Both the position numbers and the translations under genes were made by a program. From Polyangiaceae bacterium (GTDB lineage: Bacteria > Myxococcota_A > Polyangia > Polyangiales > Polyangiaceae), in contig JADLAB010000020.1 in assembly GCA_020848455.1 (NCBI GenBank), positions 1 to 34,630 of the forward strand: DNA of 34,630 bases, given 5' to 3'. The notes below the pieces were generated by a model. The model searched no databases. It saw only the letters and a list, made by a program, of their open reading frames with translations, and was not told where the DNA came from. Within the stretch, counting starts at the first letter, position 1, and each line of letters opens with the position of its first letter. Below are positions 5,421-34,630 of this stretch, one piece after another.

Positions 5421-5450
5421 CGTGTAATGGCGCGTAATGGCGCGTAATGG
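5421..5450. repeat. 10-bp tandem repeat, three copies
   Basis: CGTGTAATGG, CGCGTAATGG and CGCGTAATGG follow each other directly, 48 nt before the start of the downstream lipoprotein gene. One mismatch in the first copy. Confidence 0.85.
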
Positions 5451-5497
5451 CGTCCGGGGGCGCCCCGTGGTGCGCTGGGGGCACGGCGGAGGAGACC

Positions 5498-8400
5498 ATG
5501 CGGGCAGGCAAGTGGTGCGTGGCGTTCCTGTTGGGCTGCGTGTCGGTGCTCGGGTGCGGTGTGGCCCAGTTCCACTACGTGGAGCAGGTCGGCGCGTCGG
5601 CAGCGCGGAACGAGCAGAAGGCGGCGCCCGTCGAGGTGCTGAGCGTGCACGACGAGTATCGGCTCGAGCTCGACGGCACCTTCGTGCACACGTTCCGGCA
5701 ACGCTACCGTATCCTCGAGCAGGCCGGCGTGACGGGGTGGGGGGCCACCGAGGCCCACTGGTCGCCGTGGTACATGGACCGGCCGGAGATCACGGCCACG
5801 GTGACCTCGCCTTCGGGCGAGCAAGCGGCGCTCGACCCCACCACCATCGCCGACAGCGCGGCCTACCCGGAGGCGCCCGACGTGTACGGGGACAGCCGGG
5901 TGCTGCGCGCGCCGCTGCCGAACGTGGGGGTCGGCTCGGTCGTCGAGGAGGTCATCGTCCGGCGCGCCAGGCAGCCGTTCCTCGGCCAGGCCTACACCCA
6001 CCAGGTCATGTTGCAGGGCCCGGTGCGGCGCGGTGAGGTCGAGGTGGTCGTCGACGTGCCCGAGGGGGCGCCGCTGCAGTACGAGCTGCTCGACGCCAAG
6101 GTCGACCCGAGCGAGAGCACCGAGAACGGCCGCCGGCGCCTCACCTTCCGCGGCGGATCGTACGCCGGGCTCGAGCCCATCGAGCCCTTCGCGCCCTCGG
6201 ACGTGCCGGCGTGGCCGAGCCTCGCGTTCACGCTCGGCGAAGCGTGGCAGCCGCTCGCCGCCCGGTACCGCGCCATCGTCGACGAGAAGATCGGCGCCCT
6301 CGGTCTCGACGACGTGGTCGCGACCGTGGTCGCACCGGGCGACGAGCGCGACGCAATGGTCGCGAAGCTCTTCGCGTGGGTGAAGAAGCGCGTGCGCTAC
6401 GTGGGCATCGAGTTCGGCGAGTCGTCGGTGCTGCCGCGCGCTCCGAGCGAGACGCTCACGCGTGGCTACGGTGACTGCAAGGATCAGGCGACGCTGCTCG
6501 TCGGCCTGCTGCGGGCGGCGGGCATCGACGCGAAGGTCGCGCTCCTGCGCGCCGGCACGCAGGAGGACGTCCGCGTCAAGCTGCCGGGGCTCAACGTCTT
6601 CAACCACGCCATCGTGGTCGTTCCCGGCGACCCGCCCTCGTGGATCGACCCCACGATGGACTACGGCCGTCCGGGTGAGCTCCCGATCGCGGACTGGAAC
6701 CGGCTCGCCCTCGTCATCGACGACGCGACGGCAGGCCTCACCCGGACGCCGACGCCCGCGGCCGCCGACAACACCTACCACGAGGTCCGCACGCTCGAGC
6801 TCGCCGAGCTCGGCCGCGCCAGGGCGCACGAGGTGTCCGGCGGAACGGGGCTCGTCGACCGCGACCTGCGCGGGCGCTCGGTCGGGCCGCGCGACGACCT
6901 GACGAAGGCGTACGAGCGCTACGCGCAGCAGGAGTACAACGCGAAGTCGGTCGCGGGGGTCGAGGTGTCGAATGCCGAGGACCTCACGCGGCCCTTCGAG
7001 ACCCGCATCGACGCCGAGGGTGCACGCATCGCCATCACCTCGCTCCTCGGTGCCGACGCCATCGTCGGCGGCGATGCCGTGTTCTCGTGGCTGCCCTACG
7101 AGCTGCGCGACGGCGAGGGAGAGCGGCGCACGGACCTCATCGTGCCCGTGCCGTTTCGCGCGGAGGTGAGCTGGGTCGTCAAGCCGCCCACCGGCTTCGT
7201 CGCGAAGGACGTGCCGCCCGCCCGCCGCGAGGCCATCGGGCCGGGCGACTACGAGCGCAGCGCGCAGGTTCGCGCCGACGGCGCGGTCGAGCTGCGCTAC
7301 GCGCTCACCCTCTCGGGCGCGCGCATGAAGCCTGCCGAGGTCGTCGCCTTCCGCGAGGCGGTGAAGAAGCTGCGCGCCGAGCCGACCCCGCGCGTGACCT
7401 TCGTCCACGAGGCGAAGGCGCACTTCGACGCCGGCCGCCAGCGCGAGGGCCTGGCGAGCCTGCGCAAGCAGGTCGAGGCGCAGCCGAAGAGCGGCGCCGC
7501 GCTCATGCGCCTGGCGGCGAGCCTGGCCGAGCTCGGGCTCGGCACGAGCGCCCGGCAGCTCGCGGCGCAGGCGGTGGCGCTCGAGCCCGACAGCGCGATC
7601 CTGGCGTTTCACCACGGCGACATCGCGTCGCGCGATCTGTTCGCGCGCGCGTTCCACGAGGGGTTCGACCGGGACGCGGCGCTCGCCGCCTACCGCCGGG
7701 CGGTCGAGCTCGATCCGGACGACACCGCCTCGAAGCTCGAGATCGGTGTCCTGCTCGAGCACGGACCCACCGGCGAGCGCTACGGTCGAGGCAGCGACCT
7801 CGAGGCGGCCGTCGCCGCGTACGACGCCATCGGTCCCGAGGCGGTGCGCAAGCACGACCCCACCTACCTGCCGAACCCGCTCTATGCGCTGCTCTGGGCA
7901 CAGCGCTTCGACGAGCTCGACAAGCGCCTCGCCGCCCTGCCCGCGGGCGAGCGGCCGCCGGTCCTCGTCATCGTGTCGGCGGCGGCGCGCGGCGGCGCGA
8001 ACGAGGGTCTCGCTGCGGTGCGCGGCCTCGGCCTCGCCGCCGACGCGCGCGCGGCGATCATCGGCAGCGCAGCCGACACGCTCGTGCGCCTGCGGCGCTA
8101 CCCGGAGGCGGCGGCACTGAGCGAGCTCGCGGCCGACGCCTCGGGCGACGCGCGCGTACGGCTGCAGGCGGCTTTGCGCGGCCGGCTCACGCGCGTGGAC
8201 CCGACCAGGCTTCCTGCCGACAGCGCCGCGCACGCGGTGGTGCGGGGGTACGTGCAGCTGCTCTCGCTGCCGAACGCGCAGGCCCGCGACTACGTGGTCG
8301 CGCGCTCCTACGGCTCGGACGGCGTCTCGGCGGCGGCGGACCTCCTCGACGGCGCCGTCACGACGGCGCGGCGCTCCGGCAACTCGAACGAGGTCCTCGC

Positions 8401-9490
8401 GGACTCGGCCGCCCTCATGGAGGTGACCGAGGAGGGCAGCGACGACGAGGGCTACCGCGTCGTCATCCGCTCCGACCTCGCGACGGCGACGCAGCTCGCC
8501 TTCGTCGTGCGCGAGGCCGGCGCCTACCGCATCGTCGCCTTCGAATCGGCGCCGTCGGAGCTCGGCTGCGAGGCCCTGTCCCTCGCGAAGAGCGGCAAGC
8601 CGCGCGCGGCCAAGCGCTGGCTCGACTGGGCGCACGAGCTCGTCGGCAGCAGCCCCGGCCAGGATCCGCTGCGCCTCCAGCCCTTCCTCGAGCTCTGGGT
8701 CGACGGCAAGGGCGATCTCGAGCTCGCGTCCGCCGCCCTGTGCGCGCAGGGCCACCTCGCCGAGCGGGCCGTCCCGGTGCTCGAGGCGGCGCGTGCCAAG
8801 GCCGCGCCGGCGCTCGCCCTGACGATCGACCACGCCCTCGTCCTCGCCTACGACGACCGGCACCGGCAGGACACCCTCGGGGCCGCCGAGCGCCTCGAGA
8901 AGGCGTTCCCCACCTCGTTCACCGCGCGCGCCTTCGTGGTGGGCGCCCTCGTCGCGCTCGAGCGCCACGACGACGCCCGCCAGCGCGTCACCGGCTACCT
9001 CGCGGGCGCGCCGGACGACACGGCCGCGCTCGCCATGCTGGCGCACGTCGAGGAGGCCGCCGGCCGGCGCGTCGAGGCCCGGCAGGCGGCCGACAAGCTC
9101 ATCGCCACCGGGCACGCCACGCCCTCGACGCTCAACGGCCAGGCGTGGCGTGGGCTCGTCCTCGGCAACGTCCGCGACGAGGACCTCCGCTACGCCCTGC
9201 TGGCCGTGCAGCGCGCTCCGGCCGACGACGCCGCCCTGCACACCCTCGGGTGCCTCTACGCCGACCTCGGCCGCATCGACGAGGCGCGCCAGACCCTGAT
9301 GAAGCTGCTCGCCATGCGGCCCGGCGGCAACCCAGCGAGCCTGGACTGGTACATCGTCGGCCGCGTGGCCGAGCACCTCGCCCTGCCCGACGAAGCGCGA
9401 GCCGCCTACGCCCGCATCGACAAGCCGAAGCGCGTGACCCCCTCGATGGTCTATGCGCTCGCGGCGAAGCGGGTGGCGGGGATCAAGTGA
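5498..9490 (+). CDS. DUF3857 / transglutaminase-like / TPR lipoprotein
   Basis: 1,330 residues. The ATG at 5498 has a strong GGAGGAG ribosome binding site 4 nt upstream and opens a lipoprotein signal (CVAFLLGCVSVLGC, likely Cys20; Cys14 also fits a lipobox). After a DUF3857-type beta domain (about 45-250) comes a transglutaminase-like core with the catalytic triad visible: Cys327 in RGYGDCKDQATLL, His370 in NVFNHAIVVV and Asp384 in WIDPTMDYG. A second beta-rich part (about 400-640) is followed by a long helical array to the C-terminus with TPR features, such as RAVELDPDDTASKLEIGVLLE and LGCLYADLGRIDEARQTL. DUF3857-transglutaminase proteins are common in Bacteroidota and Myxococcota; substrates are mostly unknown. 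Here it should face the periplasm or cell surface. It is a single gene with no obvious operon partner. Confidence 0.9.
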   Translation: MRAGKWCVAFLLGCVSVLGCGVAQFHYVEQVGASAARNEQKAAPVEVLSVHDEYRLELDGTFVHTFRQRYRILEQAGVTGWGATEAHWSPWYMDRPEITATVTSPSGEQAALDPTTIADSAAYPEAPDVYGDSRVLRAPLPNVGVGSVVEEVIVRRARQPFLGQAYTHQVMLQGPVRRGEVEVVVDVPEGAPLQYELLDAKVDPSESTENGRRRLTFRGGSYAGLEPIEPFAPSDVPAWPSLAFTLGEAWQPLAARYRAIVDEKIGALGLDDVVATVVAPGDERDAMVAKLFAWVKKRVRYVGIEFGESSVLPRAPSETLTRGYGDCKDQATLLVGLLRAAGIDAKVALLRAGTQEDVRVKLPGLNVFNHAIVVVPGDPPSWIDPTMDYGRPGELPIADWNRLALVIDDATAGLTRTPTPAAADNTYHEVRTLELAELGRARAHEVSGGTGLVDRDLRGRSVGPRDDLTKAYERYAQQEYNAKSVAGVEVSNAEDLTRPFETRIDAEGARIAITSLLGADAIVGGDAVFSWLPYELRDGEGERRTDLIVPVPFRAEVSWVVKPPTGFVAKDVPPARREAIGPGDYERSAQVRADGAVELRYALTLSGARMKPAEVVAFREAVKKLRAEPTPRVTFVHEAKAHFDAGRQREGLASLRKQVEAQPKSGAALMRLAASLAELGLGTSARQLAAQAVALEPDSAILAFHHGDIASRDLFARAFHEGFDRDAALAAYRRAVELDPDDTASKLEIGVLLEHGPTGERYGRGSDLEAAVAAYDAIGPEAVRKHDPTYLPNPLYALLWAQRFDELDKRLAALPAGERPPVLVIVSAAARGGANEGLAAVRGLGLAADARAAIIGSAADTLVRLRRYPEAAALSELAADASGDARVRLQAALRGRLTRVDPTRLPADSAAHAVVRGYVQLLSLPNAQARDYVVARSYGSDGVSAAADLLDGAVTTARRSGNSNEVLADSAALMEVTEEGSDDEGYRVVIRSDLATATQLAFVVREAGAYRIVAFESAPSELGCEALSLAKSGKPRAAKRWLDWAHELVGSSPGQDPLRLQPFLELWVDGKGDLELASAALCAQGHLAERAVPVLEAARAKAAPALALTIDHALVLAYDDRHRQDTLGAAERLEKAFPTSFTARAFVVGALVALERHDDARQRVTGYLAGAPDDTAALAMLAHVEEAAGRRVEARQAADKLIATGHATPSTLNGQAWRGLVLGNVRDEDLRYALLAVQRAPADDAALHTLGCLYADLGRIDEARQTLMKLLAMRPGGNPASLDWYIVGRVAEHLALPDEARAAYARIDKPKRVTPSMVYALAAKRVAGIK

Positions 9491-16287: not shown

Positions 16288-18597
16288 CTACCCGAGCCAG
16301 CTCGGGATGAGCTTGCTCGGCGCGCCGCTCGACACGATCCAGAGCTGGTGCGCGGCGCGCGTGGCGCCGATGTGCAAGAGGTAGCGCGAGGCGTCGTCGG
16401 TGGGGTAGGTCGCGGCGTTGACGTCGACGAGGATGACGTAGTCGTACTCGAGGCCCTTGACCTGCCGCACCTCGGTGATCTCGACGCCGGGCCGGAAGAT
16501 GAAGTCGTAGTGGCGCACGCGCCGCAGGTTCGGGACCTCGGCCATGCCGAGCGCGTCGTAGTAGGCGTCGGCCTGCTCGGCGTAGCGGGCCAGGATGGCG
16601 ACCGTGGCGCGCGGCTCGCGGACGGCGAGCGGGCGCAGGGCGTCGGCGAGGAAGGCGACGGCGGCGCCCGGGCCCGGGAAGTGGTGGTGCTCGACCGGCG
16701 CGCCGGAGCGCGGGGCGACGGGCGGGATCGGGTCGGCGAGCGGGCCGAGCACGTCGCGCGCGAAGTGGAGCACCTCGCGCGTCGAGCGATAGGCGATGCG
16801 CAGGGGCTCGATGGCGGTGTGCTCGAGGCCGAGGTCCTGCAGCACCTGGCGCCAGTCGTTGAAGCCCGAGTCGGTGTTGAGCCGTTGCGAGGTGTCGCCG
16901 GCGAGCGTCACGCTGCGCCGCTCGGTCGTCGTGTGCAGCAGCACCGCGAGATCGACCGGCGCCAGATCCTGCGCCTCGTCGACGAACACGTGGTCGTAGA
17001 GGCGCGTGCCCTTGCGCGTGCGAACCGGGCCGCACACGAGCTGGAACGCGCGCAGGAGCAGGGCGTCGTCCTCGGCGTCGAGGGTGGCGTGCTCGTCGGG
17101 CCCCTCCTCGACGATGCCGTCGTCCGTCTCGGCGGGCTGGCCGCGCTCGCCGCGCTCGCCGCGCTCGCCGCCCTCCTCGCCGCGGTCGCCGCGCTCGCCG
17201 CGCTCGCCGCGGTCGCCGCGCGCCGGCTCGTCGTCGGAGCGCGGTGCGAGCGAGTCGTGCTCGCGCTCCTCGCCCTGGTGCTCGAGCACGGCCGGGCAGC
17301 GCTCGGCGCAGTAGCGGAACGCGCGCGCGAGGTCCTCGCGGTTCAGCCGGCCGGTGCCGTGCTCCTCGAAGGCCCGCTCGAGGGCGCGCTCGTCGGTGAG
17401 CACCTCGGCCCAGAGCCACAGGGCGTCGCGCGGCGTGCGGCGTCCCTCGGCCACGAGCTCGCCCGCGCGCCGCTCGAGCAGGCGCAGCAGGGCGCCGTCG
17501 GTCTTCAGGCGCGTGACGGCGGCCGGGGTGTTCTCCTCGACGGGCACGTCGAGCCACTCGAAGCACTTCTGCCGCGCCTTCTTCGCCCACTCGGCGAAGG
17601 TCTCGACCTTGACGGCGTCCATGTCGAGCGCCACGAGCAGCTCGCCGATGTAGGCCCGGAGCGCGGGGGAGCCGACGATGACGAGCATGCGCTCGGGCGC
17701 CATGCGCTGCGCACCGGACTGGTAGGCGAGGAACGCGAGCCGGTGCACGCCGATGGTCGTCTTGCCGCTGCCCGCTCCACCGTGGATGACGACCAGGCCC
17801 GTGTCGGGCTGCGAGATGAGCTCGAACTGGCGCGGATCGAGCAGGGCGGCGATCTCGGGCAGGCGCCGGTTCGTGCGCTGCGCCTCGGGGATGCCGCCGC
17901 CGATGACGCCGCGCATGTGGTCGGGGCGGATGGCGCTGCGCTCGCCGCCGGCGAGCGCGCTCTGCTGCGTCGCGAGGGTGTCCCAGCCGCCCTCGGCGTT
18001 CTTGACGAAGGTGCCCTGCGGCGAGGCCACGCGCGCGAGCTTGCCATCCTGGATGGTGACGGTGCGGCGCGCGAGGATCCTGCCCTCGACGTCGCGCTCC
18101 CCGAAGGTCTCCTCGTAGCTCGCGCCCTCCTCGTAGCGGTAATAGAGCTGGCTCACGGGCGCGTGGCGCCAGTCGACGATGCGGATGCCGAGGCGCGGCT
18201 CGATGAAGGTCGTCTTGCCGATGAGCACGTCGCGCACGCCGCGGCCCGGCTCGTCGAGGCGCAGGTGGCCGAAGTAGGGCGTGCCCGGATCGACGGGCTC
18301 GAGCGCCTGCTGGCCGCGCTGGTTCGCCACCGCCGAGACGCGCTCCATCGCCGCCATGAGCGCCGGCACGTCCTCGAGGCGCGCGGTCGCGATCTCGTCG
18401 CGCAGCGTGATGAGAGCGCGGTCGTCCTCGTAGCGCGGCGGCGGGCGCGAGGGGCGCGGCGTACGCACGTGCGCGACGACCTTGTCGCAGAGCGCTTCTT
18501 CCTCCTGCACGATGCGCTCGTGCTCGCGGGCCGAGCCCGGGGTACGGCCGTGGCCGCGCTCGGGCGGGTGGTCAGGGGTGCGTCGCGTCGAGGGCAA
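16288..18597 (-). CDS. HelD/UvrD-like superfamily 1 helicase
   Basis: About 769 residues. N-terminal helices (HERIVQEEEALCDKVVAHV) fit the coiled arm of HelD-type proteins, which remodel stalled RNA polymerase; DNA helicase IV-like repair enzymes share this layout. Walker A is HGGAGSGKTTIGVHRLAFL (Lys279), Walker B is YDHVFVDEAQDLAPVDLAV, and then come VTLAGDTSQRL, LRIAYRST, VRQVKGLEYDYVILVD and LLHIGATRAAHQLWI. All main SF1 motifs are present. Between them is an Asp/Arg/Glu/Gly-rich linker of Gly-x-Arg-Gly-Glu type. The start is uncertain: no ATG lies close to the conserved region. TTG 18597 is my choice, GTG 18510 is an alternative, and ATG 18669 would overlap the divergent gene's start. 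The true role, transcription recycling or repair, cannot be decided from sequence alone. Confidence 0.85.
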   Translation of the reverse strand: MPSTRRTPDHPPERGHGRTPGSAREHERIVQEEEALCDKVVAHVRTPRPSRPPPRYEDDRALITLRDEIATARLEDVPALMAAMERVSAVANQRGQQALEPVDPGTPYFGHLRLDEPGRGVRDVLIGKTTFIEPRLGIRIVDWRHAPVSQLYYRYEEGASYEETFGERDVEGRILARRTVTIQDGKLARVASPQGTFVKNAEGGWDTLATQQSALAGGERSAIRPDHMRGVIGGGIPEAQRTNRRLPEIAALLDPRQFELISQPDTGLVVIHGGAGSGKTTIGVHRLAFLAYQSGAQRMAPERMLVIVGSPALRAYIGELLVALDMDAVKVETFAEWAKKARQKCFEWLDVPVEENTPAAVTRLKTDGALLRLLERRAGELVAEGRRTPRDALWLWAEVLTDERALERAFEEHGTGRLNREDLARAFRYCAERCPAVLEHQGEEREHDSLAPRSDDEPARGDRGERGERGDRGEEGGERGERGERGQPAETDDGIVEEGPDEHATLDAEDDALLLRAFQLVCGPVRTRKGTRLYDHVFVDEAQDLAPVDLAVLLHTTTERRSVTLAGDTSQRLNTDSGFNDWRQVLQDLGLEHTAIEPLRIAYRSTREVLHFARDVLGPLADPIPPVAPRSGAPVEHHHFPGPGAAVAFLADALRPLAVREPRATVAILARYAEQADAYYDALGMAEVPNLRRVRHYDFIFRPGVEITEVRQVKGLEYDYVILVDVNAATYPTDDASRYLLHIGATRAAHQLWIVSSGAPSKLIPSWLG
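17140..17225 (-). repeat. Low-complexity GERGDRG-type linker repeat
   Basis: In-frame 9-nt repeats encode about 28 residues of Gly-Glu-Arg/Gly-Asp-Arg triplets inside the helicase. The segment is collagen-like in composition, highly charged and probably unstructured. Confidence 0.8.
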
Positions 18598-18667
18598 GGT
18601 CGGATCGTCCGATCGGTGAGTCGCCGCCAGGAGCGGCCGGGTGTAAAAACGGAACTTGAGGGTTAGC

Positions 18668-19138
18668 ATGAATGCGGCAGCGGTGAAGCGCCTCCTCGCA
18701 GGCCTCGGCGCGGTGGTGGTCCTCGGCCCGGGCGGGCTCGCGGGCTGCGGCACCAACCTGCAGGCCGCCTACGAGGGTGACGTGCGCTTCGAGCACTGCA
18801 TCGCGCTCGACGCCCGGGCCGAGGTCCGGAGCGAGATCCGGCGCGCCTGCTGGAACGAGTGGGTGGCCTTCTACACCTACGGCCAGACCCGGGACCGGCT
18901 CGTCCACGCCTACCGGCGCATGCGCGAGCTCGGCGGGGGTCCGGCGTCGAGCGAGACGGAGCTCGCCGACCTGTCCACCGACGCGCCGGAGCCGTCCGCC
19001 GACACGAGCGGCCCGACCCAACGCTGCGAGCTCGACTGCCGCTCGGTGCTCGACGCCTGCACCGACGGCTGCGACAACCGGGCCTGCCAGACGGCCTGCA
19101 CGGCGGGCTACCGTTCCTGTGCTCGGGGCTGCCGGTAG
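18668..19138 (+). CDS. Small Cys-rich lipoprotein
   Basis: 156 residues. ATG 18668 follows GAGGG with 6-nt spacing. The signal peptide LLAGLGAVVVLGPGGLAGC gives Cys27 as lipid site. The middle part is helical and charged (ALDARAEVRSEIRRACWNEW, TRDRLVHAYRRMREL). An acidic Ser/Thr/Pro linker leads to a C-terminal Cys cluster, CELDCRSVLDACTDGC and CQTACTAGYRSCARGC, with an even number of cysteines, suggesting disulfide bonds in the envelope. The family was not recognised. It is divergent from the helicase and is followed by the racemase gene 87 nt later. Confidence 0.8.
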   Translation: MNAAAVKRLLAGLGAVVVLGPGGLAGCGTNLQAAYEGDVRFEHCIALDARAEVRSEIRRACWNEWVAFYTYGQTRDRLVHAYRRMRELGGGPASSETELADLSTDAPEPSADTSGPTQRCELDCRSVLDACTDGCDNRACQTACTAGYRSCARGCR

Positions 19139-27244: not shown

Positions 27245-30200
27245 TCAGCTGCAGCCGAGGGAGTTGCCGCAGTTGAGGCACTTGTAGCAGGCGCCGTTGC
27301 GGACGGTGATGTGGCCGCAGGCGTCGCACACCGGCGCGTCACCCATCATCTCCTCGAGCTGGGCGTCGAGCCCGCCGACGCGCACCTCTTCGGGTGCGGG
27401 CGGCGCGATGCTCGTCGTCATCATGAGGGCGCGCGGCGCGCTCGTGGTCTCGCCCGCGTGGTCCTTCTCCGACGGATCCTGGATCGGGGCGGCCGGCGGC
27501 ACGTGCGCGAGCTCGTAGCGCTGCAGGTACTCGACCCCGATCACGCGGAACACATAGTCGACGATCGAGGTCGCGAACTTGATGTTGTCGTGGCCTTCGA
27601 CCGGACCCTGCGGCTCGAAGCGCGTGAAGGTGAACTGGTCGACATAGGTGTCGAGCGGCACGCCGTACTGCAGGCCCACCGACACCGCCATGGCGAAGCA
27701 GTTCATGAGCGAGCGGAAGGCGGCGCCCTCCTTGTGCATGTCGATGAAGATCTCGCCGAGCGCGCCGTCGAGGTACTCGCCGGTGCGGAGGAAGATCTTG
27801 TGGCCGCCGACCTTGGCCTCCTGCGTGAAGCCGGTGCGCTTCTTCGGCAGGCGCACGCGCACCCCGGTCGGGTGCACGTCGGGCCGCGGCGCGAGCGTCG
27901 TCACCGGCGGAGGCAGGCTGCTCGCCGCGGGCGCGGTCTTGGCGACCTCGTCCTTCTTCTCGTCGCTCGAGTTCGACAGCGGCTGCGAGGCCTTGCAGCC
28001 GTCGCGGTACAGGGCGACCGCCTTCAGCCCGAGGCGCCAGCCCTCTTCGTAGATGCGCTGCACGTCGTCGACCGTCGCCTCGTTCGGGAGGTTCACGGTC
28101 TTGGAGATCGCGCCCGAGAGGAAGGGCTGCACGGCGGCCATCATCTTCACGTGCGACATCGGCTCGAGGAAGCGCACGCCCGTGCGCCCGCAGCGGTTGG
28201 CGCAGTCGAAGATCGGCAGGTGGGCGGGGTCGAGGTAGGGCGCGCCCTCGATGGTCATGCGCCCGACGATCACGTCCGAGGCCTCCTGGATCTCGTCCGT
28301 CGAGAAGCCGAGGTGGCGGAGCAGGCCCACGCTGCCCTTCTTGGCGGTGGAGCCGCTCGCGTCGGCCGCGTAGCCGGGCACGCCGAGGCGCGCGTAGCAC
28401 GCCTCGCCGACGACCCACGGCGAGAACGCCTGCTGCAGATCGAAGGCGCTCGGCAGCGCGGCCTCGACCTTGTCGACCTCCTCGACCGTGAGGCCGCGGG
28501 CGAGCAGGCTGGCGCGGCTCACGTGGGGTGCCGCGAGCAGCGTGTTCGTGCCCGAGATGTAGGCGACGATCTCCTGCACCTGCGCCTCGGGGTAGCCGAG
28601 GGTGCGGAGCGCCAGCGGGACCGAGTTGTTGACGATCTTGAAGTAGCCGCCGCCGGCCAGCTTCTTGAACTTCACGAGCGCAAAGTCGGGCTCGACGCCC
28701 GTCGTGTCGCAGTCCATCAAGAGGCCGATGGTGCCGGTCGGCGCGAGCACCGTCGCCTGGGCGTTGCGGTAGCCGTGTCGCCGGCCGAGCTCGACCGCCA
28801 CGTCCCAGTCGTCACAGGCCGCGCGCCACAGCGGCGCCGGGCACTTCTCGCGGTCGATGGCGTAGGCCGCCTCGCGGTGCATGCCCATCACGCGCAGCAT
28901 GGGCTCGCGGTTCTTGGCGAAGCCCGCGAAGGCGCCCTTCTTGTCCGCCATCTCGGCCGAGACGCGGTAGGCATGACCGCACATGATGGCCGTGAGCGAG
29001 GCGGCGACGGCGCGCCCCTCGTCGGAGTCGTAGGCGAGCCCGAGGCGCATGAGCAGCGTGCCGAGGTTCGCGTAGCCGAGCCCGAGCGGCCGGTAGTCGT
29101 GCGAGTTCTTCGCGATGAGCGGGGTCGGGTAGCTCGACAGATCGACCAGGATGTCCTGGGCCACGAAGAAGACGCGGACGGCGTGGCGGTAGAGCTCGAC
29201 GTCGAAGGTGTTGTCGTCGCGCAGGAACTTCGTGAGGTTGAGGCTCGCGAGGTTGCAGGCCGAGTCGTCGAGGAACATGTACTCGCTGCACGGATTCGAG
29301 GCGCGGATCGCGTCCGAGTTCGGGCAGGTGTGCCAGCGGTTGATGGTCGAGTCGTACTGCACGCCCGGGTCGGCGCAGGCCCACGCGGCCTCGGCCAGGG
29401 TGTGCCACAGCTCGCTCGCCTGGTACTCCTCGACGACCTCGCCCGTCGTGCGCGCGCGCGTCTGCCACACGCCGGTCGGCGCGTCGGCGCGCAGCGGCAG
29501 GCCGAGCGCGGCGCTGCCGGTCGTGGCGGCCGACCCGAGCGCGGCGCGCATGAAGGCGTCGCTCACGCGCACCGAGTTGTTCGAGTTCTGGCCGCTGACC
29601 GTGTGGTAGGCCTCGCCGTTGAAGTCGGCGTCGTAGCCTGCCGCGATGAGCGCCTTGGCCTTCTTCTCCTCGCGCACCTTCCACTGGATGAAGTCGGCGA
29701 TCTCGGGGTGGTCCATGTCGAGACACACCATCTTGGCGGCGCGGCGCGTGGTGCCGCCGCTCTTGGTGGAGCCGGCCGCGCGGTCGAAGACCTCGAGGAA
29801 GCTCATCAGGCCGCTCGACGTGCCGCCGCCCGAGAGCTTCTCCTGCTTGCCGCGGATGGCGCTGAAGTTGGTGCCCGTGCCGGAGCCGTACTTGAAGAGG
29901 CGGGCCTCGCTCTTGACGAGGTCGAACATGCTCATCAGGTCGTCCTGGATCGACTGGATGAAGCACGCCGAGCACTGCGGGCGCTCGTAGGCGTTGTCGA
30001 TCTCGATGACCTCGTCCTTGGCCGCCTCGGCCTCGCAGCCCGTCGGCAGCGGCGTGTTCGCGCCGCGCGCGACGTAGTCGAAGGCGTAGTTGCCGCCCGT
30101 GCCGCGGATCTCGTAGGCGTGCCACAGGCCGCAGTTGAACCACACGGGCGAGTTGAAGGCGCCGTACTGGTTCACGAGCAGGTAGCCGAGCTCGGCCTCG

Positions 30201-30841
30201 AAGGCGTCGGCGTCGGCGCGCGTGGCGAAGTAGCCGCCCAGGCTCTCGCCCGCCTCGCGGATGGTGTGGGCGATGCGGCTGACCACCTGGCGCACGCTGG
30301 TCTCGCCCGTGCGCTTGTCGCCGTGCAGGCCGGCCTTGCGGAAGTACTTGGAGACGACGATGTCGGTCGCGAGCTGCGACCAGCCGGCGGGGATCTCGGC
30401 CCCCTCCATCTTGAAGACGATGGAGCCGTCGGGGTTCGTGATGACGCTCGAGCGGCGCTCCCAGCGCACCTCGTCGAAGGGGTCGACGCCGGGCCGCGTG
30501 GTGCGGCGCTGGAACTCGAGGCCCACGCGCCCGCGCCGCGCCGCCTTGCGCTCGGCGTGCGTGCCGCCGCCGCCCTTGCGCGCGCGCTCGTTCTTCGTCT
30601 TGGTTGCCGCCCCGCGCTTCGTCTCGGCGACGAGCGCGAGCCCGGCGCCACTCGAGCCCGCGCGGCCGCTCGCCGCGCGGCCCATGTCGGCGGTCTCGAA
30701 GCTGCGCGGCGGCACGCTGTCGGCGCGCGCCCGCCCGCTCGCGGGAGCGACCCCGTCGTGCTCCGAGCTCGGGCCGCCGTCCGCGCGCCCCCGCTTGTGG
30801 CTCATGCCGTTACCATTGCCCACGATGTTCGCCTGCGCCAT
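27245..30841 (-). CDS. nrdJ: Adenosylcobalamin-dependent ribonucleotide reductase (class II)
   Basis: 1,198 residues. It reduces ribonucleotides to deoxyribonucleotides with coenzyme B12, independently of oxygen. Signatures: [51 protein letters not shown], the active-site [19 protein letters not shown] (Asn516, Cys518, Glu520), [20 protein letters not shown], and a C-terminal redox/zinc tail with CDACG and [13 protein letters not shown]. The C-terminal extension (about 930-1198) with [20 protein letters not shown] is the usual long NrdJ type. The N-terminal about 45 residues are Gly/Arg/Ser-rich and poorly conserved; ATG 30805 is a possible later start. GGAGACAGG lies just before ATG 30841. 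It is preceded by a 646-nt divergent intergenic region. Confidence 0.97.
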
Positions 30842-31335: not shown

Positions 31336-31487
31336 GGCGCGGCGGCCCGCCTGAACGGACGACGCCTAGACACAAGCTACGCGGAACAAGTGCGCAGATT
31401 ATCAACAATTTCTCCCGAGCTTGCCCACCGGGTGGCGCGCGCGCCCGCAGCTCACCTGCGCCGCGCGCGTGGTGGTAACGGGGAGCC

Positions 31488-34313
31488 ATGACCGAGCCCG
31501 CGCCTCAGCTCTCCCTCGTGGCGCTCGGCGGCCTCGGGCAGGTGGGCATGAACGCGCTCGTGCTCGAGGAGCCGGGCGGGCTCGTGCTCGTCGACTGCGG
31601 GGTGACCTTCGGTGGCGGCGAGCTCGGGGTCGAGCTCTACGAGCCGCGCTTCGACTACGTGCTCGAGCGCGCCGATCGCCTGCGCGCGATCCTGCTCACG
31701 CACGGACACGAGGATCACATCGGCGCCGTACCCTCGCTGCTGCGCGCGCTCGTCGCGGCGCGCGAGCCCGTGGCGCACGGCGCCGCGCGCGGGCCGCACG
31801 ACCCGGTGCCGCGCCCGGTGAGCGGGCCGCTGCCGACCGTGTGGGGGCCGCCCTACGCGCTCGAGCTCTGCGCGCGACGGCTCGGCGAGGACGCGCCCGA
31901 GCTCGTGTCCGAGGTCGAGCTCCGGCCCATCGTGCCGGGCGAGCGCTTCACCGCCGGGCCGTTCACGGTGGAGCCGCTGCGCGTCACGCACTCGATCGTG
32001 GACGCGGCCGCGCTCGCCTTCGAGACCGTGGCCGGGCTCGTGGTGCACACGGGCGATTTCAAGCTCGAGCAGGAGCCGCTCGACGGCCAGCCGACCGACG
32101 AGGAGCGCCTGCTCGCGCTCGGGGCGCGCGGCGTGCGCCTGCTGCTCTCCGACAGCACCAACGTGCTCGCGCCGGGCTCGAGCGGCAGCGAGCGCTCGGC
32201 CGCGGCGGCGCTCGAGGCGGAGGTCGCCGCCGCCGAGGGCCGCGTCGTCGTGGGGCTCTTCGCCTCGAACGTGCACCGCCTCGGCGCCCTCGGCGAGCTG
32301 GCGCGCCGCCAGGGCCGGCGCGTGTGCCTGCTCGGGCGCAGCGCGCGCACCCACTTCGAGGCGGCGAGCAAGCTCGGCCTGCTCGCGTGGCCGAGCGAGC
32401 TCGTGGTGTCGCCGCAGATGGCGGGGAGCCTCGCGCGCCGCTCGGTGCTCTACGTCGTCACGGGCACGCAGGCCGAGCCGCGGAGCGCGCTCCGGCGCCT
32501 CGCGAGCGGCCTGCATCCCGAGCTGCGCATCGGGCCGGGCGACACGGTGCTGCTGTCGAGCCGCGCCATCCCGGGCAACGAGCGCACCGTGTTCGCGATG
32601 GTGGACGATCTCATTCGCCTCGGGGCGCGGGTCGTGACGCGCCAGCACGCGCCCGGCATCCACGTGAGCGGGCACGCGCACAAGGACGAGCTCGCGCGCA
32701 TCCTCGAGCTCGTGCGCCCGCGCGCCTTCTTGCCAGTGCACGGGGCCTTGCACCACCTGGTCGCCCACGGCGCGCTCGCGCGCGAGCTCGGCATCGCCGA
32801 GGTGGTCGTGGCCGAGAACGGCGTGCGGCTGGCCCTCGGCGCCGTCGAGCCGCTGCGGCGCGTGGGCGAGGTGCCGGCGGGGCGCGTGGCGCGCACGCTC
32901 GGGCGCGCGGTGCCGCAGGAGGTGCTGCGCCAGCGCCTCGAGCTGTCGCGCTCGGGCGCGGTCGTGTGCCACGTCGTGGTCGCGGACGACGGGCGCCTCT
33001 GCGCGGTGCGCGTCGCGGCGCCGGGCTCGGGGCTCGGGGCGACCGCCTGCGCCGCCCTCGAGGCGACGGTGGTGCGCGACTTCGTGTGGCCGGGGCGCGA
33101 CGCGACGGAGACCGAGCTCGGCGAGCTCGTGCGGCGCGAGCTCCGCCGGGCGCTCAAGGCCGACTTCGAGCGCCCGCCCCACATCGAGGTCCTCGTGACG
33201 CGCCTGCCGCGGCCGAGCGTCGTGCGGTCGCGCGCCCACGCGGTGATCCGGCAGTCCGTGCAGGCGCACCTCGCGGTCGCGCGGAGCGGGGCGGAGCGAC
33301 TCGCGGTGGTGGCCCCGAGCCCGCCCGAGGGGGACGCCGCGTCGGCCGCCGCCGAGGCCAAGCCGCCGGGGGCGCCGGGCGACGACGCGGCGGCCGAGCT
33401 GCCGGGCGACGCGGCGGGCTCGACGGCGGCTGCGGTGCCCGACCCCGAGGCGGTCCACGATCTGCGCGTGGGCCTGCGGCGGCTGCGCACCGTGCTGCGC
33501 GTGGCGCGCCCGCTCTACGGCGAGGTGGAGCTCGCCGAGCTCGGGCGGGGTCTGCGCGGCTTCGCGCGCGCGACGGGCGAGCTGCGCGACGCGGAGGTGC
33601 TGCTCGAGACGCTGCTCGAGGTGGCGCGGCGCGGCCAGCCTGCCAGGGGAGCGCCGCCGGCCGCGGCGGCCGAGGGCACGACCCGGCCGGCCGTGGACCT
33701 CGAGCTCGCGGGCGCGTCCCCGAGCGAGCCGCGCCCCGGCGATGCGGCGGTCCCCGTCGACCTCGCGGCGGCGATGGAGCCCTGGCTCGAGCGCATCCGG
33801 CGCGGGGAGCGACGCCTGCGCAGCCGCATGGTCCGGCGCGTCGCGCGGCCCGACTTCGAGCGGCTGCTGCGCGAGGTCGAGCGCGCCATCGAGCGCGGGC
33901 CGCTCGACCGCGCGGCGAGCCACGGCTTCCAGAAGCGGGCGCTCGACACTGCGCTCGCCGACGTGCGCGAGCTCATCGCGGTCGACGGCGACGACGTCGC
34001 GGGCCTCCACGAGCTGCGCATCCGCTTCAAGCGGCTGCGCTACACCGCCGAGATGCTCGCCGGGGGGGCCGACGCCGCGCACCGGCCCGCCGGCCAGCGC
34101 CTGGCGCGCATCGCCGAGCTCGCCGCGCGCATGCAGAAGCTGCTCGGCGATCTGCACGACGTCGACGTGGCGGCGGACGCGGCGGGGGCGACGCGGCGCC
34201 TCGACGAGGCGACACGCGCGCTCTTGCAGGCCGCGCTCCGCGCCCGGCGGCTCGAGCTCGTGGCGGACGCGCTGGCCGAGCGCGTGCGGATCGCGCGCGC
34301 GCTGCGGCTGTGA
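31488..34313 (+). CDS. RNase J-like ribonuclease fused to a C-terminal CHAD domain
   Basis: 941 residues; normal RNase J has about 550. Residues 1-590 are RNase J: metal site His72-x-His74-x-Asp76-His77 in LTHGHEDHIGAVPSLL, VTHSIVDAAALAFE, HTGDFKLEQEPLDG, LLLSDSTNVLAPG, GLFASNVHRLGALGELA, TGTQAEPRSALRRLA, LLSSRAIPGNERTVFAMVDD, HVSGHAHKDEL (His392, His396) and FLPVHGALHHLVAHG. A C-terminal RNase J domain ends near PPHIEVLVTRLP. From about 600 a CHAD domain follows: QSVQAHLAVAR, VHDLRVGLRRLRTVLRVARP (His657), GELRDAEVLLETLLEV, and after an Ala/Pro linker GLHELRIRFKRLRYTAEML (His841) and KLLGDLHDVDVAADA. CHAD domains bind polyphosphate. A ribonuclease tethered to, or regulated by, polyphosphate is inferred. 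GGGGAG precedes the ATG. Confidence 0.93.
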   Translation: MTEPAPQLSLVALGGLGQVGMNALVLEEPGGLVLVDCGVTFGGGELGVELYEPRFDYVLERADRLRAILLTHGHEDHIGAVPSLLRALVAAREPVAHGAARGPHDPVPRPVSGPLPTVWGPPYALELCARRLGEDAPELVSEVELRPIVPGERFTAGPFTVEPLRVTHSIVDAAALAFETVAGLVVHTGDFKLEQEPLDGQPTDEERLLALGARGVRLLLSDSTNVLAPGSSGSERSAAAALEAEVAAAEGRVVVGLFASNVHRLGALGELARRQGRRVCLLGRSARTHFEAASKLGLLAWPSELVVSPQMAGSLARRSVLYVVTGTQAEPRSALRRLASGLHPELRIGPGDTVLLSSRAIPGNERTVFAMVDDLIRLGARVVTRQHAPGIHVSGHAHKDELARILELVRPRAFLPVHGALHHLVAHGALARELGIAEVVVAENGVRLALGAVEPLRRVGEVPAGRVARTLGRAVPQEVLRQRLELSRSGAVVCHVVVADDGRLCAVRVAAPGSGLGATACAALEATVVRDFVWPGRDATETELGELVRRELRRALKADFERPPHIEVLVTRLPRPSVVRSRAHAVIRQSVQAHLAVARSGAERLAVVAPSPPEGDAASAAAEAKPPGAPGDDAAAELPGDAAGSTAAAVPDPEAVHDLRVGLRRLRTVLRVARPLYGEVELAELGRGLRGFARATGELRDAEVLLETLLEVARRGQPARGAPPAAAAEGTTRPAVDLELAGASPSEPRPGDAAVPVDLAAAMEPWLERIRRGERRLRSRMVRRVARPDFERLLREVERAIERGPLDRAASHGFQKRALDTALADVRELIAVDGDDVAGLHELRIRFKRLRYTAEMLAGGADAAHRPAGQRLARIAELAARMQKLLGDLHDVDVAADAAGATRRLDEATRALLQAALRARRLELVADALAERVRIARALRL

Positions 34314-34320
34314 GGGAGGC

Positions 34321-34362
34321 AGTTGTCAGTTATCAGTTGTCAGTTGTCAGTTATCAGTTATC
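34321..34362 (+). repeat. AGTTRTC heptamer array, six units (left arm)
   Basis: AGTTGTC, AGTTATC, AGTTGTC, AGTTGTC, AGTTATC, AGTTATC, starting 7 nt after the RNase J-CHAD stop. Its end (AGCCC) matches the end of the inverted right arm. Confidence 0.92.
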
Positions 34363-34441
34363 AGCCCAGAGCGGGCCGCGCGGCGCTGCCGGTGCTGGTC
34401 GTCTCGCCGAGCGAGGCACCAGAGCGGCCCTGCGGGCCGAG

Positions 34442-34462
34442 CGACTGACGACTCACGACTGC
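34442..34462 (+). repeat. CGACTSA heptamer array, three units
   Basis: CGACTGA, CGACTCA and CGACTGC lie between the two AGTTRTC arms and share their 7-nt period. Confidence 0.7.
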
Positions 34463-34509
34463 CAGCTTCCGAGCCGGGAGCGGATGCGCGCCTCTCCGAC
34501 TCCGGGGCT

Positions 34510-34537
34510 GATAACTGACAACTGACAACTGATGACT
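34510..34537 (-). repeat. AGTTRTC heptamer array, four units (right, inverted arm)
   Basis: Read on the minus strand: AGTCATC, AGTTGTC, AGTTGTC, AGTTATC, then AGCCC. It begins 1 nt after the thiolase stop and can pair with the left arm over about 28 bp. Confidence 0.9.
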
Positions 34538-34538
34538 C

Positions 34539-34630
34539 TCACGCCCGCTCGAACACCGTGGCCACGCCTTGGCCCACGCCCACGCAGAGCGAGGCGAGGC
34601 CGATCTTCGCCTGGCGGCGCCGCATGGCCC
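34539..34630 (-). CDS. Acetyl-CoA acetyltransferase/acyltransferase (thiolase), C-terminus only
   Basis: Only the last 29 residues are in the window: RRRQAKIGLASLCVGVGQG, then VATVFERA and the stop at 34539. This is the thiolase C-terminal motif with the second catalytic cysteine (LC-x-G-x-GQG). Family members condense or cleave acyl-CoA in fatty-acid or polyhydroxyalkanoate metabolism; which one cannot be told from this piece. It converges on the RNase J-CHAD gene, with the heptamer repeats between. Confidence 0.85.
   Translation of the reverse strand, partial: AMRRRQAKIGLASLCVGVGQGVATVFERA

Follow-up and report, generated by a model that had tools for sequence, protein, structure and literature searches.

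An RNase J–CHAD fusion in a Polyangiaceae genome and its putative link to polyphosphate

Results

A single frame encoding RNase J and CHAD

The DNA analysed here (the window, 34,630 nt) belongs to a 742-contig draft genome of 9.2 Mb from a soil-dwelling genus allied to Sorangium, its placement in the family Polyangiaceae being judged by named relatives. According to the ORF listing and translation, one plus-strand frame near the end of the window (31488–34313) runs from ATG to TGA over 941 amino acids with no internal stop, as the first-pass annotation had read it, and encodes an RNase J followed by a CHAD domain (Table 1). It is the sole RNase J and the sole CHAD detected in the genome, besides a contig-edge copy of its last 84 codons. 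The local DNA is 72–80% GC and holds other long frames (901 aa on the minus strand, 1034 aa on the plus strand), and because such GC-rich DNA keeps other frames long, frame length alone proves nothing; the coding reality of the fused frame rests instead on profile matches, a structure model and dN/dS. Frame length was accordingly rejected as evidence of fusion, the CHAD frames of relatives staying open over RNase J, which lies in another frame, at up to 976 aa, yet being unfused.

Table 1 Features of the fused gene and its upstream neighbour (window coordinates)
Feature	Position	Strand	Basis or remark
Class II (B12-dependent) ribonucleotide reductase, divergent upstream gene	27245..30841	-	Same neighbour in about 14 related loci
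GGGGAG, weak Shine-Dalgarno-like stretch ahead of ATG (candidate)	31480..31485	+	Sequence alone
Fused gene RNase J–CHAD	31488..34313	+	941 aa; ORF, translation, Pfam
RNase J part, residues 1–573 (metallo-beta-lactamase, beta-CASP, RMMBL, C-terminal domain)	31488..33206	+	Pfam, PDB matches
Stretch of ~30 residues (88–117), absent from most relatives	31749..31838	+	Split matches, 2–88 and 118 onward
Beta-CASP domain, residues 250–375	32235..32612	+	Pfam PF22505
GAGG five bases ahead of in-frame GTG (residue 570), putative internal start	33186..33197	+	Sequence
Junction, window reads on where relatives' RNase J ends in TGA	33204..33209	+	..VLVTRL then PRPSVV..
Predicted first CHAD helix, residues 582–608	33231..33311	+	AlphaFold2 model
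Ala/Pro/Gly-rich low-confidence linker inside CHAD region	33312..33437	+	AlphaFold2 model
CHAD Pfam match, residues 651–898, including H657, R660, R664, R700, R851, Y852	33438..34181	+	Pfam, alignments

Elsewhere in the window lie a gene for a large protein with DUF3857, transglutaminase-like and TPR domains (5450–9490, plus strand) and one for a UvrD-like helicase (16291–18756, minus strand); defence-system models gave no match. Just 3' of the fused gene are short tandem units (CAGTTGTCAGTTATCAG..; 34319–34364 and 34508–34532), which recur inverted about 150 bases on, where none would be expected by chance. Another contig of the same genome (L036, G000:C264:1 onward) overlaps window positions 34059–34630 with a few base differences and another repeat count, differences such as would arise from strain variation.

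The RNase J half

The stops of relatives' RNase J genes align near window residue 573. Up to this point, Lactamase_B (3.4e-11), RNase_J_b_CASP (9e-36, residues 250–375) and RMMBL (1.3e-07) exceeded their curated Pfam cut-offs, RNase_J_C fell below its own (15.9 bits vs. 23.8) in an alignment spanning almost the full model, and the NCBIfam RNase J model TIGR00649 reached 317.8 bits in two stretches, under its curated cut-off of 400, perhaps owing to the insertion at residues 88–117. This insertion is weakly constrained (dN/dS 0.45 against a second species of the genus), whilst RNase J overall gave 0.12 in the same comparison. The catalytic motifs anticipated from the letters alone were located, namely HGHEDH (72–77), HTGD (187–190), HVSGH (392–396) and PVHG (416–419), along with THS (167–169), and in a PDB sequence search solved RNase J proteins ranked first, with E down to 2e-85. 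The fused protein is predicted to carry an intact RNase J, sharing the MBL/beta-CASP core and catalytic motifs with the enzymes of S. coelicolor (5a0t), D. radiodurans (4xwt) and B. subtilis (RNase J1, 3zq4). Unlike these solved proteins, it has a C-terminal CHAD of ~360 residues and the insertion of ~30 residues, and it lies below the NCBIfam RNase J cut-off.

The CHAD half

The profile search placed a CHAD domain (PF05235, E = 7.7e-34, 118.1 bits vs. a gathering score of 25.6) inside residues 600–941, where the first-pass annotation had expected it, with both His657 and His841 as it stated, and the C. tepidum CHAD matched the C-terminal part of the fused protein in the PDB sequence search. 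An AlphaFold2 model of residues 573–941, built from an alignment of 35 CHADs, has a mean pLDDT of 85.4 and a pTM of 0.82, with two low-confidence linkers within the region. It matched the double helical-bundle fold in the PDB, the best hits being the C. tepidum CHAD structures 6qva (polyphosphate-bound), 6qv7 and 3e0s (TM 0.57–0.59 by query, 0.68–0.71 by target), followed by a plant CHAD (6qv5) and PptA (6rn5).

The C. tepidum protein (CtCHAD) binds polyphosphate with contributions from H253, R256, R260, R296 and R418/Y419, mutation of which weakens binding (Lorenzo-Orts et al., PMC6537752). These residues align to H657, R660, R664, R700 and R851/Y852 of the window, and no variation occurs in the contact columns when 13 or 35 CHADs of RNase J-linked loci, the window's among them, are aligned; the sister species (G001), however, has Asp at Y852, an otherwise invariant Tyr. 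The CHAD core (residues 766–941) gave a dN/dS of 0.21 between the window and this second species. From alignment and model, CHAD is judged intact with its polyphosphate-contact residues kept, and it shares both these residues and the helical-bundle fold with CtCHAD (6qv7/6qva), the R. communis CHAD (6qv5) and PptA/phosin (6rn5). A TTM (CYTH) domain precedes CHAD at the N-terminus in about half of known CHAD proteins, and several CHAD proteins are encoded in polyphosphate-enzyme gene clusters (PMC6537752); the partner here, in contrast, is a ribonuclease.

An overlapping gene pair in relatives

A CHAD-pattern search of named genomes gave 80 loci, in 43 of which RNase J immediately precedes CHAD in the same orientation. 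These 43 are all in records labelled myxobacterial, deltaproteobacterial or proteobacterial, and the CHAD loci from other phyla in the set have no RNase J within about 8 kb. All but two of the pairs (41/43; the exceptions are L077 and L080) overlap by 4 nt, the RNase J stop TGA sharing bases with the CHAD start as ATGA, GTGA or TTGA, so that the CHAD of these relatives sits one base back in frame relative to RNase J. The separate, overlapping pair occurs in many related genera, for instance in Sorangium cellulosum So ce26 and So0157-2, Polyangium and Minicystis rosea. The GTGA overlap of one locus (L079) was read from its copy, L052 (G002:C397). In this draft-genome copy an in-frame TAG breaks the CHAD gene.

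By comparison with these relatives, the window gene is a fusion of a conserved pair of separate, overlapping genes, and the two genes of the overlapping pair are probably translationally coupled. The functional link between RNase J and CHAD that the fusion had suggested on first reading gains stronger support than was then apparent, the two genes being 4-nt-overlapping neighbours in most CHAD-bearing genomes of the family.

Our search covered 144 genomes of the class, with a check for fused frames in 60 genomes of the family. CHAD was present in 45 of these 60 (not detected in 15), directly after RNase J in 31 of the 45 (window included) and, as far as the contigs show, away from it in 14, one of which is the sister species, where a contig break splits the two. 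In other families of the order CHAD never adjoined RNase J (coordinates compared by eye). One family genome (G025) keeps CHAD whilst RNase J is missing, which indicates that CHAD can outlive its partner. Its CHAD (L135, G025:C12, ~6870–7920) lies beside a likely divergent ribonucleotide reductase gene, RNase J being found neither there nor genome-wide. As CHAD is absent or located elsewhere in many family members, the partnership is dispensable and the role of CHAD is not essential to RNase J.

The surroundings of the pair differ by subgroup. Upstream is a divergent class II ribonucleotide reductase, which is the window's case, or else an ArsA-type ATPase, and downstream is either a thiolase or an FHA/zinc-ribbon protein plus a NUDIX protein. 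Because these flanking genes vary, conservation of the pair appears to exceed that of its neighbourhood, with the reservation that the loci share descent and that the comparison is informal. The FHA/zinc-ribbon and NUDIX hydrolase genes follow CHAD in L064, L070, L073, L098 and others. If the predicted NUDIX enzyme acts in trimming the 5' ends of RNA, it would go well with RNase J.

The junction and a second species

The alignment of relatives to the window RNase J ends at ..VTRL, from where the window proceeds through PRPSVVRSRAHAVIRQ.. into CHAD. Given the frame offset of CHAD in relatives, the fusion would have been made by an indel, beyond a mere change of the stop codon. The second species passes the old stop in the same frame and continues for ~30 codons into CHAD helix 1, covering most of this predicted helix before its contig ends at about residue 604; its CHAD part begins another contig, and residues 605–734 are missing between the two. 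The fusion in this species is thus seen as readthrough to about residue 604, with the remainder split by the contig break. Across the 27 aligned codons of residues 574–604, the two species differ by four synonymous changes and one non-synonymous change (dN/dS 0.09, from small counts), which suggests that the reading frame beyond the old stop is under purifying selection.

A frame in which RNase J runs into CHAD was found in two of the 60 family genomes, those of the window and the second species. In the midpoint-rooted RNase J tree the two fused rows cluster together (100/100) and fall within a well-supported set (100/95; long branch) that includes RNase Js overlapped by a CHAD gene. Among the sampled genomes the fusion keeps to one genus, with no spread across Myxococcota. 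Matches that ran past the RNase J TGA in several genomes look like out-of-frame extensions, CHAD lying in another frame there; an apparent in-frame RNase J-TAG-CHAD arrangement in G025 was rejected, as this genome lacks RNase J and the match is of low complexity; and when separate RNase J and CHAD rows were aligned jointly with the full protein, the result was misaligned and set aside.

The first-pass annotation had named a frameshift between residues 590 and 640 as the event that would separate the halves, and a false indel joining two genes during assembly or sequencing is conceivable in a single draft genome of 742 contigs with a GC-rich linker, the more so as the contigs of the second species break inside this linker. 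That species, however, crosses the junction without a stop and in the same frame into predicted CHAD helix 1, and its differences from the window are mostly synonymous, so that an artefact is highly improbable and we regard the fusion as real with near certainty.

The in-frame GTG at residue 570, with its GAGG upstream, is common to both species of the genus and could yield a free CHAD beside the fusion. Motifs such as GAGG plus GTG are, however, frequent in GC-rich DNA, and we consider such dual products quite improbable, albeit compatible with the polyphosphate-based explanation discussed below.

The pairing could also reflect a shared operon for expression and nothing further, the fusion being a neutral accident of the 4-nt overlap. 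Overlaps of this length are common in bacterial operons, and part of the family can dispense with CHAD; against this, the pair stays whilst flanking genes change, the fused frame appears to be under purifying selection past the old stop, and the tail is tolerated on what is the sole RNase J detected in this genome, which together make co-transcription alone unlikely.

Discussion

We infer that an RNase J tethered to, or regulated by, polyphosphate is the best explanation of the fused gene, at a probability of roughly 55%. CHAD would hold the nuclease on polyphosphate chains or granules, and RNA decay would be positioned or restrained as polyphosphate accumulates. RNase J normally assembles into dimers or tetramers, so each particle would bear several CHADs, which could give multivalent binding to a single chain. 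Polyphosphate might thereby localise or switch the nuclease in starvation or development, as proposed on first reading, and PPK1 is encoded in the source genome.

The effect could take two directions, in that tethering may place decay at polyphosphate bodies, or polyphosphate may keep the nuclease inactive. PPK is reported to co-purify with the E. coli degradosome (Blum 1997, as cited in PMC3997798), and polyphosphate in E. coli promotes the association of RNase E with Hfq foci (PMC13193609). The E. coli work leans towards restraint, because polyphosphate antagonises RNase E decay in vitro and the authors speculate that in polyphosphate-Hfq foci the degradosome is held in a sequestered, inactive state (PMC13193609). 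Both the degradosome with PPK and the polyphosphate-Hfq-RNase E bodies likewise tie polyphosphate to the RNA decay machinery, but through a separate PPK or Hfq, whereas in Polyangiaceae a predicted polyphosphate-binding domain is encoded within or beside the RNase gene. Counting against the mechanism, loss of the Ralstonia CHAD proteins or of E. coli ygiF gave no apparent phenotype (PMC6537752).

CHAD might instead be a structural or RNA-handling partner, acting in assembly or RNA grip, with polyphosphate not its physiological ligand. As a basic helical domain attached where the C-terminal domain of RNase J ends, CHAD would fit such a role, and conserved pairing alone does not name the ligand. 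Yet two characterised CHADs lack detectable ssRNA or ssDNA binding (PMC6537752), which speaks against a simple RNA grip, and the residues that do not vary here are the ones assigned to polyphosphate contact, hence we give this partner role only a small chance.

Our literature search (most subscription journals lying outside its coverage) found no paper naming both RNase J and a CHAD domain, and no title or abstract on CHAD with ribonucleases or on RNase J with polyphosphate that proposes the pairing, in keeping with the first impression that the architecture lacked a prior description. The E. coli evidence on the action of polyphosphate in RNA turnover is indirect, and CHAD proteins are without a settled physiological role; a pair that overlaps in most CHAD-bearing family genomes, with a fused form in a single genus, identifies a specific nuclease as the partner of CHAD. 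The link between polyphosphate and RNA decay can thereby be put to the test using a single purified protein and simple mutants, and Sorangium cellulosum So ce26 and Minicystis rosea are cultured species with the unfused pair.

The conserved pairing suggests that in this family RNA decay is under the direct control of polyphosphate or is positioned by it. More tentatively, and at somewhat less than even odds, Polyangiaceae may possess a dedicated polyphosphate-sensing RNase J subunit, a CHAD supplied from overlapping genes or by fusion that sequesters or switches RNA decay with rising polyphosphate. If true, the phosphate and energy store of the cell would directly set RNA lifetime.
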